Shown here: in pieces, positions 10,931-41,747 of the stretch
Numbering within the stretch: position 1 is the first letter of the stretch
Layout of the letters: each line of letters begins with the position of its first letter
Assembly (NCBI GenBank): GCA_020692325.1
Contig: JAIMKR010000011.1
Span: forward strand, 1-64,000
DNA length: 64,000 nucleotides
Direction of reading: 5' to 3'
DNA from: Desulfocurvus sp.
Lineage (GTDB): Bacteria > Desulfobacterota > Desulfovibrionia > Desulfovibrionales > Desulfovibrionaceae
Notes under the pieces: model-generated
Told to the model about the DNA's origin: nothing
The model's database searches: none
The model's input: only the letters and a program-made list of their open reading frames with translations
Position numbers and translations under genes: made by a program

Positions 10931-11482
10931 ATGAGCAGAATTCAGTACCAACACTACATCGGCAAGGGGCCGGAGGCAGAGGCGCTCATCAAGGACGTCC
11001 AGAACCGCTACACGGTGTTCCTCAATGCGGTGGTGGCGTTTCAGAACGCAATGGGGTTCAGCGGAATATAGCAGAAAGAGTCATGTGTTGCGACGCGGGT
11101 CTGCGGTCCGACCTACGGCCATAAGCTGTCCAAAGAAGAGGAGACGGTCCTGGGCCTGAAGTACGAAGGCTGCGTCGGTGCCCTTTACGCTTATTCCCCA
11201 CACCTGAACACCAAGTCCGGGAAGGCACTCCAGGGGAAACTGGACGAGGTCAACAAGCTGGCAGTCGACCGTGTGCGCCGCATCGTCGAGGTCTCCGGTA
11301 TGTTCCATGAAGTTCTTATCGGCATGACGCTTGCGCGCTCGACGTGCGGATTCACGACGGAGGCGATCTTCATGCGGGTGCCCACGGGCGACAATGACCC
11401 GAGGAATGGGGGCATGCCGACGCCTCCACCATGGCTCATCCCCGTGAAGGAATCCAAGTTCCTGGCCGCGCGGGGAAAGTGA
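10931..11482 (+). pseudogene. Phage protein interrupted by an in-frame TAG
   Basis: From the ATG at 10931 the frame encodes MSRIQYQHYIGKGPEAEALI, then VFLNAVVAFQNAMGFSGI, and meets TAG at 11069-11071. The same frame continues without shift: QKESCVATRVCGPTYGHKLS, LGLKYEGCVGALYAYSPHLN, MFHEVLIGMTLARSTCGFTT and PPPWLIPVKESKFLAARGK, with a TGA ending at 11482. It is one gene of about 183 residues with a nonsense codon, not a 46-residue peptide plus non-coding DNA. The function is not recognised. Confidence 0.75.
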
Positions 11483-11564
11483 AGCGAAAACGCCCCCCGC
11501 TCTTGGGGGCGCGGGCGGGCGTGGTGGCCCGGCCCTGACGAGCAGCCCGAACAAGGAGAGGAAC

Positions 11565-18884: not shown

Positions 18885-19066
18885 GGGCGAGGGATCTTGG
18901 TCAGGTCGCCCAATAGGCAAAGGCCTCCCGGGCTGAATAGCCCCGGGGCGCCGTGTTGCTCTTGGAGTTTTGAACCTCGTTTAACGAGGTGGGTTCCCCC
19001 GGTCCTCCGTCAGGCTGCCCGCCGAATGGCGGGTATGCACACAGGAAGGACTTCGGCGGATCCCTT
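18885..19066 (-). ncRNA. ssrS: Probable 6S RNA
   Basis: Between zapA and rny, on their strand, is a 180-base segment that can fold as one long rod. The ends pair (GGGATC at about 19064 with GATCCC at about 18891), and hairpins inside include CCCGCC-ATTC-GGCGGG, CCTCGTT-AA-ACGAGG and CCCGGGGCT-ATT-CAGCCCGGG. Size, closing stem and position next to zapA all fit 6S RNA, which binds the housekeeping RNA polymerase in stationary phase. A good promoter ends a few bases before the predicted 5' end. No open frame of note occupies the region. I infer the identity from position and fold only. Confidence 0.6.
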
Positions 19067-19070
19067 ATGA

Positions 19071-19099
19071 TGCATATTGGCTCAAGAACTCAAAAACAA
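19071..19099 (-). promoter_or_regulatory. Promoter of the probable 6S RNA
   Basis: On the minus strand, TTGTTT (19099-19094) and TATGCA (19076-19071) are separated by 17 bases, and the expected start near 19066 coincides with the outer end of the RNA closing stem. Confidence 0.5.
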
Positions 19100-19161
19100 T
19101 CACGAACTCCCCAGGGTTATGTTCCAAGAATCGCTATGCGCAAGGCCGAATGTCCGGCCTA

Positions 19162-37060: not shown

Positions 37061-39040
37061 CTAGAGTCTCACCTGGGTGCCCAGCTCCACCACGCGTCCG
37101 GGCGGAATGCCGAAGAAGGTCGTGGCGTTCCAGGCGTTGCGCGACATGAAGGCGAACAGGCTCTTGCGCCAGGAGCTCATTCTGGATGGCCCGCCAGTGA
37201 GCAGGCTCTCGCGGCCCAGATAGAAGGTGGTGTTCATGAGTTCCACGTTCAGGCCGTGGCTCTTGGCCTGTTGCAGAATGTCCGGCACGTTGGGGGTCTG
37301 CATGAAGCCATAGGTGGCGATGATGCGGAAGAAGCCGTGCCCCAGGCTGGTCACGGTCAGCCGTTGTCCGGCGGGCACGAAGGGCGACTCCGCCGAGACG
37401 ATGGACAGCAGCAGGATCTGCTCGTGCAGCACCTTGTTGTGCTTGTAGTGGTGCAGCAGGGTTATGGGCGTGCCCGTGCTGGAGACGGACATGAACACCG
37501 CCGTGCCGGGGACGCGCACGGGCGGCTTGCCGGCCACCAGGCTGTTCAGGAACAGGTCCATTGGCAGACCCATGGACTGGAACTGCCGGCCGAGGGCGGC
37601 CTTGCCCTCGCGCCAGGTCACCATGCCCAGCATGATGAAGCCGGCCACGGTGAGGGTGAACCAGCCGCCGTCGAAAATCTTGAGCAGGTTGGAGACGAGG
37701 TAGGTGATGTCGAACAGGAGGAACAACGTGATGAGCGGGGCGGTCTTCCACACGCTCCAGCGCCACAGCGTGTGCACCACGAAGAAGAAGATCACCGAGG
37801 TGATGGCCATGGTGGCCGTCACGGCGATTCCGTAGGCCCCGGCCAGGCCGCTGGAGCTCTTGAAGGCCAGCACCAGGCCGATGCAGGCGAGCATCATGGC
37901 GTTGTTCACGCCGGGCAGGTAGATCTGCCCCTTGGTCTCGGCGCTGGTGTTGATGATGTGCATGCGCGGGCAGTAGCCCAGCTGCATGGCCTGCTGGGTC
38001 AGCGAGAACACGCCGGAGATCATGGCCTGGCTGGCGATGACCGTGGCGATGGTGGCCAGCGCCACCATGGGGTAGAGCAGCACCTGCGGCACCAGCGCGA
38101 AAAAGGGGTTGAAGGCCATGTCCGGCCGGGCGAGCAGCAGCGCTCCCTGGCCGAAGTAGTTCAGCACCAGCGAGGGCAGCACGATGGCGTACCACGACAT
38201 ACGGATGGGCCGGCGGCCGAAGTGCCCCATGTCGGCGTAGAGCGCCTCGCCGCCGGTGATGCACAGCACCACGGAGCCGAGTACGATGAGTCCGTGCCAG
38301 TGGTTCACGACGAAGAAGCGCACGGCGTGGATGGGGTTGAGCGCGACCAGGATGTGCGGCTGGCCGGCGATGGCCATGACGCCCAGCGTCGCCAGCACCG
38401 AGAACCAGAGGATCATGAGCGGGCCGAAGACGCGGCCGATGCGCTCCGTGCCGCGTTTTTGCACCCAGAACAGGGCCACCAGGATGACGCACGTGCCGGG
38501 AATGATGAAGGGCTCGGCCGCGTTGGTGGCCACGTTCATGCCTTCCATGGCCGAGAGCACGGAAATGGCCGGGGTGATGATGCCGTCGCCGTAGAGCAGG
38601 GCCGCGCCGAACAGGGCGGAGGTGATGAGCAGGGTGTGGCGCGTCTTGTCCGAGCGTTCCACCGAACTTTTGACCAGCGCGAGCAGGGCGAAGATGCCGC
38701 CCTCGCCCTTGTTGTCCGCGCGCATGACGAACATGACGTACTTGAGGCTGACGACGATGAGCAGCGACCAGAAGATGAGCGAAAGCACGCCGAGGATGTT
38801 TGGCTGCGAGAGCGCGATGGCGTGCTCGCCGTGGAAGCATTCCTTCACGGCGTACAGCGGACTGGTGCCGATGTCGCCGTAGACCACGCCGAGGGCGGCC
38901 AGGGCGAGGGTCATGGTGCGGCCGTTGCCATGCCCGTTGCCGTGCTCACGCGCGGCGGCCTCCGCGTCCAGGGACGCGGGGGGCTGCGCACCGGCGGGTG
39001 CGGACGCGGAGACGGAACCGGGCTCTTGCGCGGCGGACAT
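37061..39040 (-). CDS. kup: Kup-type potassium uptake transporter
   Basis: Kup imports K+ with protons. I start it at the ATG at 39040 (MSAAQEPGSV, 659 residues), placed by its GGAGGT site; the frame runs open through the riboswitch but that is leader RNA. The core has about 12 membrane helices with the family start ALAALGVVYGDIGTSPLYAV, SLIFWSLLIVVSLKYVMFVM and the motif NKGEGGIFALLALV. The C-terminal 200 residues are a soluble domain (PFVPAGQRLTVTSLGHGFFR). It is preceded by its own c-di-AMP riboswitch. Confidence 0.95.
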   Translation of the reverse strand: MSAAQEPGSVSASAPAGAQPPASLDAEAAAREHGNGHGNGRTMTLALAALGVVYGDIGTSPLYAVKECFHGEHAIALSQPNILGVLSLIFWSLLIVVSLKYVMFVMRADNKGEGGIFALLALVKSSVERSDKTRHTLLITSALFGAALLYGDGIITPAISVLSAMEGMNVATNAAEPFIIPGTCVILVALFWVQKRGTERIGRVFGPLMILWFSVLATLGVMAIAGQPHILVALNPIHAVRFFVVNHWHGLIVLGSVVLCITGGEALYADMGHFGRRPIRMSWYAIVLPSLVLNYFGQGALLLARPDMAFNPFFALVPQVLLYPMVALATIATVIASQAMISGVFSLTQQAMQLGYCPRMHIINTSAETKGQIYLPGVNNAMMLACIGLVLAFKSSSGLAGAYGIAVTATMAITSVIFFFVVHTLWRWSVWKTAPLITLFLLFDITYLVSNLLKIFDGGWFTLTVAGFIMLGMVTWREGKAALGRQFQSMGLPMDLFLNSLVAGKPPVRVPGTAVFMSVSSTGTPITLLHHYKHNKVLHEQILLLSIVSAESPFVPAGQRLTVTSLGHGFFRIIATYGFMQTPNVPDILQQAKSHGLNVELMNTTFYLGRESLLTGGPSRMSSWRKSLFAFMSRNAWNATTFFGIPPGRVVELGTQVRL

Positions 39041-39046
39041 GGGCGT

Positions 39047-39230
39047 ACCTCCGATGATGGCGGTGATCGCGGGGCGGCCCCATGTTGGTGTGGAGGTCTT
39101 CCCCTTCGCGGCCTGCGAGGTTAGCTGACGGGCTGGGACCGAAAGGTGTCCCGCGCCGTTGTGCGGCGCTGCGCCCCGTTGGGGAGTGTGGGTCCCCCGC
39201 TCCCGGACGGCTTGTCCGGGATTCGGCAGG
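39047..39230 (-). promoter_or_regulatory. c-di-AMP (ydaO/yuaA) riboswitch of kup
   Basis: Read on the minus strand, the leader contains the aptamer blocks GCCGAATCCCGG, GGGAGCGGGGGACCCA, GACACCTTTCGG and CCCGTCAGCTAACCTCGCAG, the order known for ydaO riboswitches. The aptamer spans about 39230-39108. After it, GACCTCC (39098-39092) is complementary to the GGAGGT ribosome site of kup (39052-39047), giving a direct way to block translation. c-di-AMP normally switches such K+ importer genes off. Confidence 0.9.
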
Positions 39231-39235
39231 GAGCA

Positions 39236-39265
39236 TTCATACCCGTGGCGTCGAGATGGTGTCAA
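39236..39265 (-). promoter_or_regulatory. Promoter of the kup riboswitch transcript
   Basis: TTGACA (39265-39260) and TATGAA (39241-39236) are 18 bases apart on the minus strand; the start would fall at the 5' edge of the aptamer. The second riboswitch has the identical pair with the same spacing. Confidence 0.8.
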
Positions 39266-39422
39266 GCCCGTCCGCCGGGGGCCGAGGGCCGGGGGGCGGG
39301 GCATCCACACCATTCAGCCCGTCCGGGGCGGGTCGTGCGGGGCCGGGCGGTGCGGGCGCCCGGCCCCCAGGTTGTCGGCGGAGCGCTCCCTCGGAGGTGG
39401 GAGCCGTCCGCCGTGACCCGCG

Positions 39423-41408
39423 TTACAGCCGGATGGGCATGATGACGAAGGGCACGCCCTCCCTGTACAGCCGGCGCTGCACGGCGAACACGATGTGGTT
39501 GTGCAGCAGCCGGGTGATGAACGTCTCGTTGGGGAACACCAGCTGCCCCCCGAAGAACACCGCGCGGGGAAAGCGCCGCAGGATGTCCGGCGTCAGGCCC
39601 GCCACCTCCTCCACCACGTCCACGCCGATGGCGCTCACGCCCTCGGCGTACACTCCGCGCCCGCGAGCGAAATCCACGTAGCGGTCCAGGTCGGCGCGGA
39701 TGTGCGTGGCGAGCGCCTCCATCTCCTCTTTGCCCTTGAACACGCCGGCGTCCACCAACCCCACCTGCACGAAGACGAGGTTTCTGAATTCGCCGGAGAA
39801 GAGCTTGTGCATTCCCAGCAGTGTGTGCATTCCCAGGCCGTTGTAGCCGTTCACCAGCAAAACCGCTGTCTTGCCGGCAGGGTCCGGCGCTGGGTCGGCC
39901 GGCAGAACGGCCTCACTGGGCGCGGCGAGGAAGGTCGGGTCGGCCTCCAGCGCGGGCAGCAGCTCATCCAGATGCTTGAGCATGACCCAGGTCTGATCGT
40001 AATGCCGGCGGATATACAGGGCCAGCGCCGCCACCGCGCCGGTCACCGCCAGCGTGGCCCAGCCGCCCTCGAAGAACTTGACGGCCGTGACGGTGACGAG
40101 GATGAACGCGCACAGGACGAGTCCCAGACCGTTGAGCGCCAGCCCCTTCCGCCAGCCCGGCTCCCGGCCTCGCGCGCCCAGCCAGTGGCGCACCATGCCC
40201 AGCTGCGAGAGGGTGAAGGTGACGAACACGTTGATGGAGTAGAGCACGATGAGCAGATCCACCGAGCCGCCGCTGATGAGCATGAGCACGAGGGAGGCCC
40301 CGCCCATGAGCAGGATGCCCTTTTGGGTCACCAGCCGGTCGGAGAGCATGGCGAAGCGCGTGGGAAACCAGCGGTCCAGGGCCATGTTGGCCAGCACGCG
40401 CGGGCCGTCCAGAAAGCCGGTTTGCGCCGCCACGAAGAGGATCGCCGCCTCGGAGATGAGGGTGACGAGCACGAAGGCGTGGCCTGGCGCGCCCCAATGC
40501 GCGGCGATGGCCTCGAAAAGAACGGCGTTGAGCGTTTTGCCGCGCGTTTCGGCCACGCCGTAGAGAATGTACGCCAGGATGAGTCCCATGACCGTGACGG
40601 AGAGCGATACGGCCATGCAGGTCATGGTGCGCCGGCCCGTGCGCACGCGCGGTTCGCGCAGGATGGCCAGACCGTTGCTCACGGCCTCCAGGCCGGTGTA
40701 CGTGCCCGCGCCCATGCTGTACGCCCGCAGCAGAATCAGAATGAGTCCGATCATGCCCAGTTGGCTGTGGGCGGCCCGGGCGTCGTTCGCGGTGCGCGCG
40801 GCGATGGCCGGCAGGTCGCCCAGGTGCGCCCCCACGCCCCAGAGTATGGCGAAGGCGTGGGTGACGACGAAGATCACGAAGATGGGCACCAGCGCCGTCA
40901 CCGATTCCTTGACCCCGCGCAAATTGAGCAGGATGAGCCCGAGGACCCCGAGCATGGCCGTCGCCAGCTTCAGCCCGGCCAGCCCCGGCGGCAGGAAACT
41001 GAACAGCGCGTCTGCCCCGCTGGCCACGGAGAGCGTGATGGTGAGCGCGTAGTCCACCAGCAGCGCGCAGCCGGAGATCATGCCGACTTTCGGCGAGAGC
41101 AGCTTGCTGGCCACCACGTAACCGCCGCCGCCCGAGGGAAACAGCTCGATGATTTGCGAGTAGCTGGCGCTGATGACGAAGATGGTGGCCACGGAGGCCA
41201 GCCCCACGAACAGCGCCAGAAACGTGTGGTGCCCCAGGGCCAGGTAGGCCTCGGCCGGGCCGTAGCACGAGGAGGACAGTCCGTCGCTGCCCAGCCCCAC
41301 CCAGGCGAAGAAGGCGATGAGCGACAGGTGGTGGAAGATGGACTGATCGCCCAGGCTGAGCGACTTGCCGAGGAACAGCTCCTTGATGCGGCGCGCGGTT
41401 GGCGACAT
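39423..41408 (-). CDS. KimA-like APC-family potassium transporter
   Basis: The 661-residue product starts at the ATG at 41408 after a TAGGAGG site. It has about 12 membrane helices of the APC fold (GLGSDGLSSSCYGPAEAYLA near the N-terminus matches the family's ion-binding first helix, followed by SGGGGYVVASKLLSPKVG), then a soluble C-terminal domain (AGKTAVLLVNGYNGLGMHTL). Bacillus KimA, formerly YdaO, is a high-affinity K+ importer ruled by a c-di-AMP riboswitch, and the same riboswitch class lies upstream here. A general amino-acid permease is the alternative, but the leader makes K+ far more likely. Confidence 0.85.
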   Translation of the reverse strand: MSPTARRIKELFLGKSLSLGDQSIFHHLSLIAFFAWVGLGSDGLSSSCYGPAEAYLALGHHTFLALFVGLASVATIFVISASYSQIIELFPSGGGGYVVASKLLSPKVGMISGCALLVDYALTITLSVASGADALFSFLPPGLAGLKLATAMLGVLGLILLNLRGVKESVTALVPIFVIFVVTHAFAILWGVGAHLGDLPAIAARTANDARAAHSQLGMIGLILILLRAYSMGAGTYTGLEAVSNGLAILREPRVRTGRRTMTCMAVSLSVTVMGLILAYILYGVAETRGKTLNAVLFEAIAAHWGAPGHAFVLVTLISEAAILFVAAQTGFLDGPRVLANMALDRWFPTRFAMLSDRLVTQKGILLMGGASLVLMLISGGSVDLLIVLYSINVFVTFTLSQLGMVRHWLGARGREPGWRKGLALNGLGLVLCAFILVTVTAVKFFEGGWATLAVTGAVAALALYIRRHYDQTWVMLKHLDELLPALEADPTFLAAPSEAVLPADPAPDPAGKTAVLLVNGYNGLGMHTLLGMHKLFSGEFRNLVFVQVGLVDAGVFKGKEEMEALATHIRADLDRYVDFARGRGVYAEGVSAIGVDVVEEVAGLTPDILRRFPRAVFFGGQLVFPNETFITRLLHNHIVFAVQRRLYREGVPFVIMPIRL

Positions 41409-41418
41409 GGCGCGCCTC

Positions 41419-41526
41419 CTACAGGGCCGCCGCGGAGCGGCGGGCGTTGCGGGGACGTGGGGCGTGATGCTGGCGGCGGACCATGCGCGGCAGGGGCCGG
41501 AAAACGGCCAAACGGACGGCGGGCAT
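41419..41526 (-). CDS. Possible 35-residue leader peptide
   Basis: Between the riboswitch and the KimA-like gene lies a short frame with a strong ribosome site (GGAGG, seven bases before ATG). It encodes MPAVRLAVFRPLPRMVRRQH and a further 15 residues rich in Arg, His and Ala, and ends 10 bases before the transporter start. Its ribosome site is one arm of the riboswitch hairpin. It may couple translation to the transporter or be a chance frame. Confidence 0.45.
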   Translation of the reverse strand: MPAVRLAVFRPLPRMVRRQHHAPRPRNARRSAAAL

Positions 41527-41532
41527 AAAAAT

Positions 41533-41579
41533 ACCTCCGGTACGAATGAATGCGGGGGATGGCCCCGTGTACCGGAGGT
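41533..41579 (-). terminator. Expression-platform hairpin of the KimA-gene riboswitch
   Basis: An 11-bp perfect stem (ACCTCCGGTAC / GTACCGGAGGT) is followed on the minus strand by ATTTTTA. It can serve as an intrinsic terminator and also hides the GGAGG of the short leader frame. It begins 11 bases after the last aptamer block, as expected for an OFF switch. Confidence 0.75.
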
Positions 41580-41589
41580 CTTCCCCTTC

Positions 41590-41712
41590 GACGCCTGCGA
41601 GGTTAGCTGACGGGCTCGGACCGAAAGGTGTCCTACGCCGTGTGAGTCCGGCGATGCGCCCCATGAGGATGTGGGTCCCCCGCTCCCGGGAAACGCTCCC
41701 GGAATTCGGCGA
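41590..41712 (-). promoter_or_regulatory. c-di-AMP (ydaO/yuaA) riboswitch of the KimA-like gene
   Basis: The minus strand has the same ordered blocks as the kup leader: GCCGAATTCCGGGAGCG, GGGAGCGGGGGACCCACA, GACACCTTTCGGTCC, and CCCGTCAGCTAACCTCGCAG. The 3' half including AAGGGGAAGACCTCC is nearly base-for-base the same as in the kup leader, while the middle stem differs, so the two are paralogous copies under selection. Confidence 0.9.
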
Positions 41713-41717
41713 CACAA

Positions 41718-41747
41718 TTCATACGACGGATGTCGGAAACCTGTCAA
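41718..41747 (-). promoter_or_regulatory. Promoter of the KimA-gene riboswitch transcript
   Basis: TTGACA (41747-41742) and TATGAA (41723-41718) with an 18-base spacer on the minus strand. Boxes and spacing match the kup promoter exactly. Confidence 0.8.

Follow-up and report, generated by a model that had tools for sequence, protein, structure and literature searches.

The question raised by this locus is whether two potassium transporter genes lying behind near-copies of one riboswitch are controlled in the same way, and how the second copy came to be there. The locus occupies the minus strand of the window, i.e., the whole 64,000-nucleotide (nt) stretch of Desulfocurvus sp. DNA analysed here (contig JAIMKR010000011.1, positions 1 to 64,000), and consists, in transcription order, of a promoter, an aptamer of the cyclic di-adenosine monophosphate (c-di-AMP) class, a small open reading frame and kimA, followed by kup behind a promoter and an aptamer of its own. 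An initial annotation, made from the letters of the DNA, proposed that the kup copy acts on translation and the kimA copy on transcription. We consider it somewhat probable that kimA is instead preceded by a copied promoter-riboswitch-start module of kup and that a c-di-AMP OFF switch gates kimA through translation of the small frame, an upstream open reading frame (uORF).

According to this proposal, each leader would be an OFF switch for K+ uptake that responds to c-di-AMP: with the ligand bound, the ACCTCC next to the 3' end of the aptamer would pair with a downstream GGAGGT and hide a ribosome-binding site. In the kup leader the hidden site would be that of kup itself, which would be turned off directly; kimA would be turned off because its uORF is not started. 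Without c-di-AMP, ribosomes would translate the uORF and stop within the kimA ribosome-binding site, and since the uORF stop codon lies in this site, kimA is expected to be translated once ribosomes finish the uORF, the coupling occurring either by termination-reinitiation or by unmasking of the kimA site. The kimA leader would have arisen as a copy of the kup promoter, aptamer, platform and start, together with approximately the first 12 kup codons, the copied start becoming the uORF. The OFF direction is supported by the available text of published work on c-di-AMP and K+ uptake (PMC6488665; PMC10284832). The kimA part of the locus contains the following elements:

41742..41747, minus strand: -35 hexamer TTGACA of the kimA leader, assigned by sequence
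41718..41723, minus strand: kimA leader -10 hexamer TATGAA, which abuts the aptamer and has a spacing of 18 nt to the -35 hexamer
41577..41721, minus strand: c-di-AMP riboswitch aptamer of kimA (Rfam RF00379, 87.7 bits, E 4e-19)
41569..41579, minus strand: left arm (ACCTCCGGTAC) of the 11-bp sequestor hairpin, assigned by complementarity and covariation
41533..41543, minus strand: right arm (GTACCGGAGGT) of the hairpin, holding the uORF Shine-Dalgarno sequence GGAGG (41534-41538)
41419..41526, minus strand: uORF of 35 codons, MPAVRLAVFRPLPRMVRRQHHAPRPRNARRSAAAL, with the stop codon TAG at 41419-41421; found in 10 of 10 kimA-bearing genomes of the genus
41415..41420, minus strand: AGGAGG, ribosome-binding site of kimA, overlapping the uORF stop codon
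39423..41408, minus strand: kimA-like K+ transporter gene, 661 amino acids, ATG at 41408

The 11-bp hairpin described in the initial annotation is present; the uORF, however, was overlooked there. Its ribosome-binding site lies in the 3' arm of the hairpin, and its ATG follows 7 nt on, at 41526. Both leader pairings thus face a ribosome-binding site, and only the owner of the site differs (kup itself or the uORF). Among the 15 genomes of the window's genus, kimA was found in 10, all of which carry the riboswitch and the uORF, with GGAGG inside the right arm of the hairpin and the ATG 7 or 8 nt on. The uORF stop lies 9-14 nt before the kimA ATG in nine of them and overlaps the ATG by 4 nt in the tenth (G160; labels of this kind, for genomes, leaders and genera, are our own). 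A misread kimA N-terminus was considered and rejected: the frame differs from that of kimA in the window, relative frames 0, 1 and 2 all occur among the relatives, and the stop always falls before or at the kimA start. In shuffled sequences a chance stop within -4 to 14 nt of the start had a P of 0.01-0.12 for eight of the 10 genomes; for G160 and G157, P rose to 0.64 and 0.74, because their kimA start reads ATGA, itself an out-of-frame stop.

In genus g39, the GGAGG-ATG-uORF order follows the aptamer in all eight kimA leaders, as it does in the single kimA leader of genus g7; the stops lie 55-147 nt and 97 nt before kimA, respectively, so the position close to the start (-4 to +14 nt) that is found in 10 of 10 genomes of the window's genus is absent from both. 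The kimA leaders of g23 (n=2) and g4 (n=3) contain no such uORF, one hit in g4 having been set aside as spurious. Altogether, a uORF follows the aptamer in 19 of 24 kimA leaders of the family. The script had counted 20; a spurious 200-codon uORF of G007 was dropped, its GGAGG lying within the aptamer tail and its frame running far into kimA.

The corresponding elements of the kup part are as follows:

39260..39265, minus strand: -35 hexamer TTGACA of the kup leader
39236..39241, minus strand: -10 hexamer TATGAA of the kup leader
39094..39238, minus strand: c-di-AMP riboswitch aptamer of kup (RF00379; Rfam, 64.3 bits, E 1.3e-12)
39092..39097, minus strand: anti-Shine-Dalgarno ACCTCC of the kup leader, assigned by sequence and alignment
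39047..39052, minus strand: GGAGGT, the kup Shine-Dalgarno sequence and complement of ACCTCC
37061..39040, minus strand: kup K+ transporter gene, 659 amino acids

As had been proposed, the kup ACCTCC can cover the GGAGG of the start site. The pairing was evaluated in 25 aligned leaders (24 distinct), namely 24 rows from the genus and G015 from another genus; the G153 kup leader was dropped from the platform and head counts owing to runs of N. In the masking helix, 88.4% of the cells are paired compared with 31-41% in slid versions, and both sides have changed in five of the 11 pairs. Of 500 shuffles, none reached the paired percentage, six the covariation score and 11 the number of changed pairs. 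In G157, in particular, GGTAC/GTACC is replaced by the compensated GGCAT/ATGCC. The window's own kup keeps just the 6-bp ACCTCC/GGAGGT core of the helix. By folding, opening of the ribosome-binding site costs 12.2 kcal/mol in the kimA leader and 9.7 kcal/mol in the kup leader.

Two further arrangements were seen among kup leaders. Those of genus g12 (L052-L055, L060-L062, L064) have a different, long platform, with, by eye, a strong GGTGGGG..CCCCACC hairpin and a short T run just before the ribosome-binding site. G152 and G159 (L041, L051) carry two adjoining kup genes, each with its own RF00379 aptamer; that of the second kup of G159 is degenerate (54.5 bits).

Both aptamers score above the RF00379 gathering score of 38 bits, and the suggestion that two K+ transporter genes stand under paralogous c-di-AMP riboswitches is borne out by these matches together with the identities of the two proteins. 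Window Kup matches PF02705 (E 7e-186) and PF22776 by profile, as well as NCBIfam TIGR00794 (551.6 bits, cut-off 539.6), and reaches just 708.7 of the 883 bits of the stricter NF008015. The KimA-like protein matches the solved KimA structure 6s3k (E 2.8e-58), and an NCBIfam profile search with it gave no match. Both regulated proteins thus resemble known transporters by sequence; nothing unusual was noticed in either, and the interest of the locus is confined to the leaders. A search of the 3.05-Mb genome with RF00379 found only these two matches, both on the same strand as, and upstream of, K+ uptake genes.

The two promoters are identical (TTGACA-18-TATGAA), as claimed, and both abut their aptamer. 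Among the leaders compared, an exact TTGACA stands in the same position in 24 of 25 from the genus and in 36 of 53 from the family, which suggests that promoter and aptamer move as one unit. Neither promoter was reported by a promoter pattern scan, as this requires the sixth base of the -10 hexamer to be T; the conservation stated here comes from the comparison of leaders. The near-identity of the aptamer 3' halves, also pointed out initially, is real, but most of it is conserved aptamer core: CAGCTAACC stands in 40 of 41 aligned leaders, and thus the likeness alone is no proof of recent duplication.

A diadenylate cyclase gene, whose absence had been named as an argument against c-di-AMP control, is present. 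The genome encodes two PF02457 proteins: CdaA, in a folP-cdaA-cdaR cluster in which cdaA adjoins cdaR/YbbR, and a second protein of 494 amino acids (L004:448-1932, plus strand) with N-terminal DACND and DACNH domains, which are probable sensors. Five matches to the DHH domain are present too, and these may include a c-di-AMP phosphodiesterase. Gene content therefore suggests that the cell makes c-di-AMP, the putative ligand of both leaders.

Within the family, RF00379 was found in 41 of 288 genomes and six of 44 genera, with 53 matches, and the next downstream gene by tblastn is kup in 29 and kimA in 24. Class-wide, it occurs in 46 of 348 genomes and seven of 59 genera, outside the family only in genus g46; the family and class runs used stricter filters, which lose weak matches. 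KimA alignment A1 used 19 of the 24 sequences.

The origin of the uORF is suggested by its head, MPAV-x-LAV-x-RPL, which recurs at Kup N-termini of the same genus. A motif written after the sequences had been seen, M-x4-[LPS]A-x2-[RG]P, is present in nine of 10 uORFs and, within the genus, in nine of the 14 Kup starts that could be read (one of the 15 Kup leaders has runs of N), in none of 14 Kup starts of other genera, and at three of the 1967 ATGs of the window, one of which is the uORF itself. The sole uORF that misses the motif, that of G157, has two extra codons that shift the same LAALRPF in frame. Moreover, in three of the eight genomes with both leaders (G158, G156 and G165), blastn joins kimA and kup leaders in one block from the aptamer to 33 to 38 nt past the ATG, i.e., through codons 11-13; in the other five, including the window, the shared block stops at points ranging from 47 nt upstream to 12 nt downstream of the uORF ATG.

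In an aptamer tree without support values, the kup and kimA copies of the genus intermix. The underlying alignment holds 41 of the 53 matches; seven g12 kup, three g23 kup (long inserts) and two g39 kimA leaders were left out. Five of the 15 genus genomes show no kimA, two of them being only 82-84% complete, and four of these five carry the motif in a Kup start, an observation that favours copying from kup to kimA as the probable direction; the alternative would be loss of kimA or incomplete assemblies. Aptamer identity between kimA and kup averages 0.81 within and 0.80 between genomes, compared with 0.86 among kimA copies and 0.76 among kup copies; close pairs occur in G158 (0.92) and in one pair of G159 (0.94). 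As the only explanation for the likeness of the 3' halves, recent gene conversion was considered and set aside: it is not needed, because the aptamer core is conserved, and the values within and between genomes hardly differ.

Several observations weigh against gating of kimA through a copied start. Variability at the three codon positions of the uORF head (0.32, 0.32 and 0.42 when G157 and G160 are omitted) is at best weakly coding-like, and with all ten uORFs it amounts to 0.60, 0.66 and 0.65, position 2 being the highest. The kimA start site is predicted to be partly buried with or without a ribosome at the uORF end, so that the accessibility test did not discriminate. The kimA hairpin is predicted to stay closed by about 12 kcal/mol whether P1 is forced on or off, and its opening would therefore have to be co-transcriptional or helped by ribosomes; this modelling suggests that switching is decided co-transcriptionally. 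Candidate helices of the ligand-free state (GGGGA/UCCCC and GGGG/CUCC) are conserved with little or no covariation, and the anti-Shine-Dalgarno sequence is lost in one of 25 leaders (the second kup of G159). In the window itself, the Kup start is without the motif, and homology to the kup leader breaks off 47 nt upstream of the uORF. The kimA hairpins of the genus keep a U-rich tail that is compatible with some termination. Finally, the genomes are related, and counts across them are not independent events.

The alternative that survives best keeps the initial suggestion that the kimA hairpin works chiefly as an intrinsic terminator; the uORF would then be a side effect of the copying of the start and contribute little. 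Although a tested c-di-AMP riboswitch, that of B. thuringiensis kdpFABC, acts by termination according to the available text of PMC6488665, we regard this explanation as unlikely for kimA. It accounts for the GC-rich 11-bp hairpin followed by TATTTTT, for the predicted thermodynamic locking of this hairpin, and for the number of T in the 8 nt that follow it, which is at least five in nine of 10 kimA leaders of the genus vs. three of 14 scored kup leaders. A terminator pattern scan did not report the hairpin because the loop exceeds its limit. The terminator d score, whose formula we take to be of the d'Aubenton Carafa type, is 0.0 for the kimA hairpin of the window and -58 for its kup. Across the genus it ranges from -10.3 to +2.1 in nine of 10 kimA leaders, reaches 22 in G160 and exceeds 10 in three of 14 scored kup leaders. 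These values are borderline beside the 29-62 of five kimA leaders from other phyla, yardsticks chosen for showing a T run (five of the 12 other-phylum kimA-locus aptamers printed have hairpin and T run, which is itself a point for the terminator). Moreover, the 3' arm keeps GGAGG and the properly spaced ATG in 10 of 10 leaders, neither of which a terminator needs, the uORF stop position is kept as well, and in several relatives this hairpin is found right at the start of kup, without a U-tract in G152 and G155. Of the division proposed initially, direct masking of the ribosome-binding site at kup stands; assignment of the kimA copy to transcription is weakened, as its hairpin carries the Shine-Dalgarno sequence of a conserved uORF. 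Termination may contribute at kimA without being the principle common to both leaders.

A rather improbable variant is that uORF translation protects the growing transcript from Rho. In the presence of c-di-AMP, ribosomes would not translate the uORF and Rho would stop transcription in the C-rich uORF region, whereas without the ligand ribosomes would shield the RNA. The excess of C over G from the uORF to kimA is 0.178 in the window, a value reached by 1.2% of 118-nt background windows, and all 19 uORF stretches exceed the mean of their own kimA coding windows; in 10 of the 19 leaders, however, coding windows further downstream are just as C-rich in 10% of cases or more, and so are many kup starts. 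The g39 stops, at their distance from kimA, are too far for simple stop-start coupling and fit Rho better, but the narrow range of stop positions in the genus of the window argues for coupling instead. An open-access literature search that combined riboswitch, uORF, Rho-dependent and c-di-AMP found no paper.

That the uORF is a decaying, functionless relic, with kimA translated from its own site and the riboswitch having little effect on it, would agree with a likeness limited to the first ~12 codons, an unconserved remainder and a weak codon-position signal, yet it is very unlikely given that the 11-bp pairing is kept in 10 of 10 kimA leaders of the genus, with the compensated change in G157, and that the Shine-Dalgarno sequence, the ATG and, across three frames, the stop position are kept.

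The proposed gating of kimA through the uORF has a tested precedent in the B12 riboswitch of M. tuberculosis ppe2. In the available text of PMC11260477, this translational OFF switch precedes a uORF whose translation is required by the downstream gene, the position of the stop matters, stop and start overlap tightly, and termination-reinitiation is backed by reporters. The kimA leader, by sequence, shows the same order of hairpin-borne GGAGG and ATG; it differs in ligand and aptamer, its coupling is predicted from sequence, whereas that of ppe2 was tested by experiment, and its uORF start looks copied from the start of a neighbouring regulated gene, unlike ppe2. The Bacillus ydaO/yuaA switches (RF00379; B. 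subtilis kimA and B. thuringiensis kdpFABC), as far as the available part of PMC6488665 describes them, share the aptamer family, K+ uptake as the target and the expected OFF polarity; the kdp switch is reported to use intrinsic termination, in contrast to the masking of a ribosome-binding site, for kimA that of a uORF, proposed here. The odc1 motif also combines a structured leader hiding a ribosome-binding site with a conserved uORF and, judged by its description in the available text of PMC8632094, differs in having no known ligand and an 11-residue, highly conserved peptide.

In open-access literature searches, no paper was found on a c-di-AMP riboswitch in Desulfovibrio or on Humidesulfovibrio and potassium, and the accessible texts contained no case of a c-di-AMP riboswitch acting via a uORF. 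What makes the locus of interest is that it can be put to the test as a concrete instance of a riboswitch possibly acting on a gene via a uORF, and that it illustrates how a gene may acquire a riboswitch by copying its neighbour's whole start module. With it, c-di-AMP control of K+ uptake is predicted for Desulfovibrio-like sulfate reducers as well.

A related arrangement occurs in genus g46, which belongs to another family. Five of its six RF00379 matches precede nuoA of the NADH-quinone oxidoreductase (L163-L167, L171-L175), identified in one protein by PF00507 and in the others by reading the translation; an open-access literature search found no report of a c-di-AMP riboswitch before nuoA. 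The nuoA ATG lies 410-547 nt after GTCAGCTAACC of the aptamer, and the aptamer is directly followed by a Shine-Dalgarno-like sequence and a uORF, 49 or 63 codons long; in four of these five uORFs the end is alike, reading [HR]YGxIDxPSPPL[LP]. The sixth match, in G294, lies 17 kb off on the same contig as a nuoA leader and precedes kup (by reading). The nuoA uORF of G294 resembles the N-terminus of its own Kup (peptide score 54, reached in 0 of 500 shuffles; DNA score 30, 0 of 300) more than Kups of other genera (shuffle fractions 0.004 for G137 and 0.18 for G136). Since the likeness of the other four uORFs to the G294 Kup is weak (0.004 to 0.21), a second case of a copied kup start is put forward for G294 only, where the nuoA leader looks like one. 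It is tentatively suggested that a module of promoter, riboswitch, ribosome-binding site and start codon was copied from kup more than once, to kimA and to nuoA, each time with a kup-frame stub that turned into a uORF and conferred c-di-AMP control. If so, capture of a riboswitch with a coding stub would be a repeatable route into a second-messenger regulon, and respiratory complex I would come under c-di-AMP.

Elsewhere in the window, 6S RNA (RF00013, 97.4 bits) is found at 18936-19120 on the minus strand, and a Type II hammerhead ribozyme (RF02276, 55.0 bits, cut-off 37) at 11482-11551 on the plus strand. The surroundings of the ribozyme consist of small open reading frames and, judged by reading the translations, have the look of a Mu-like prophage.

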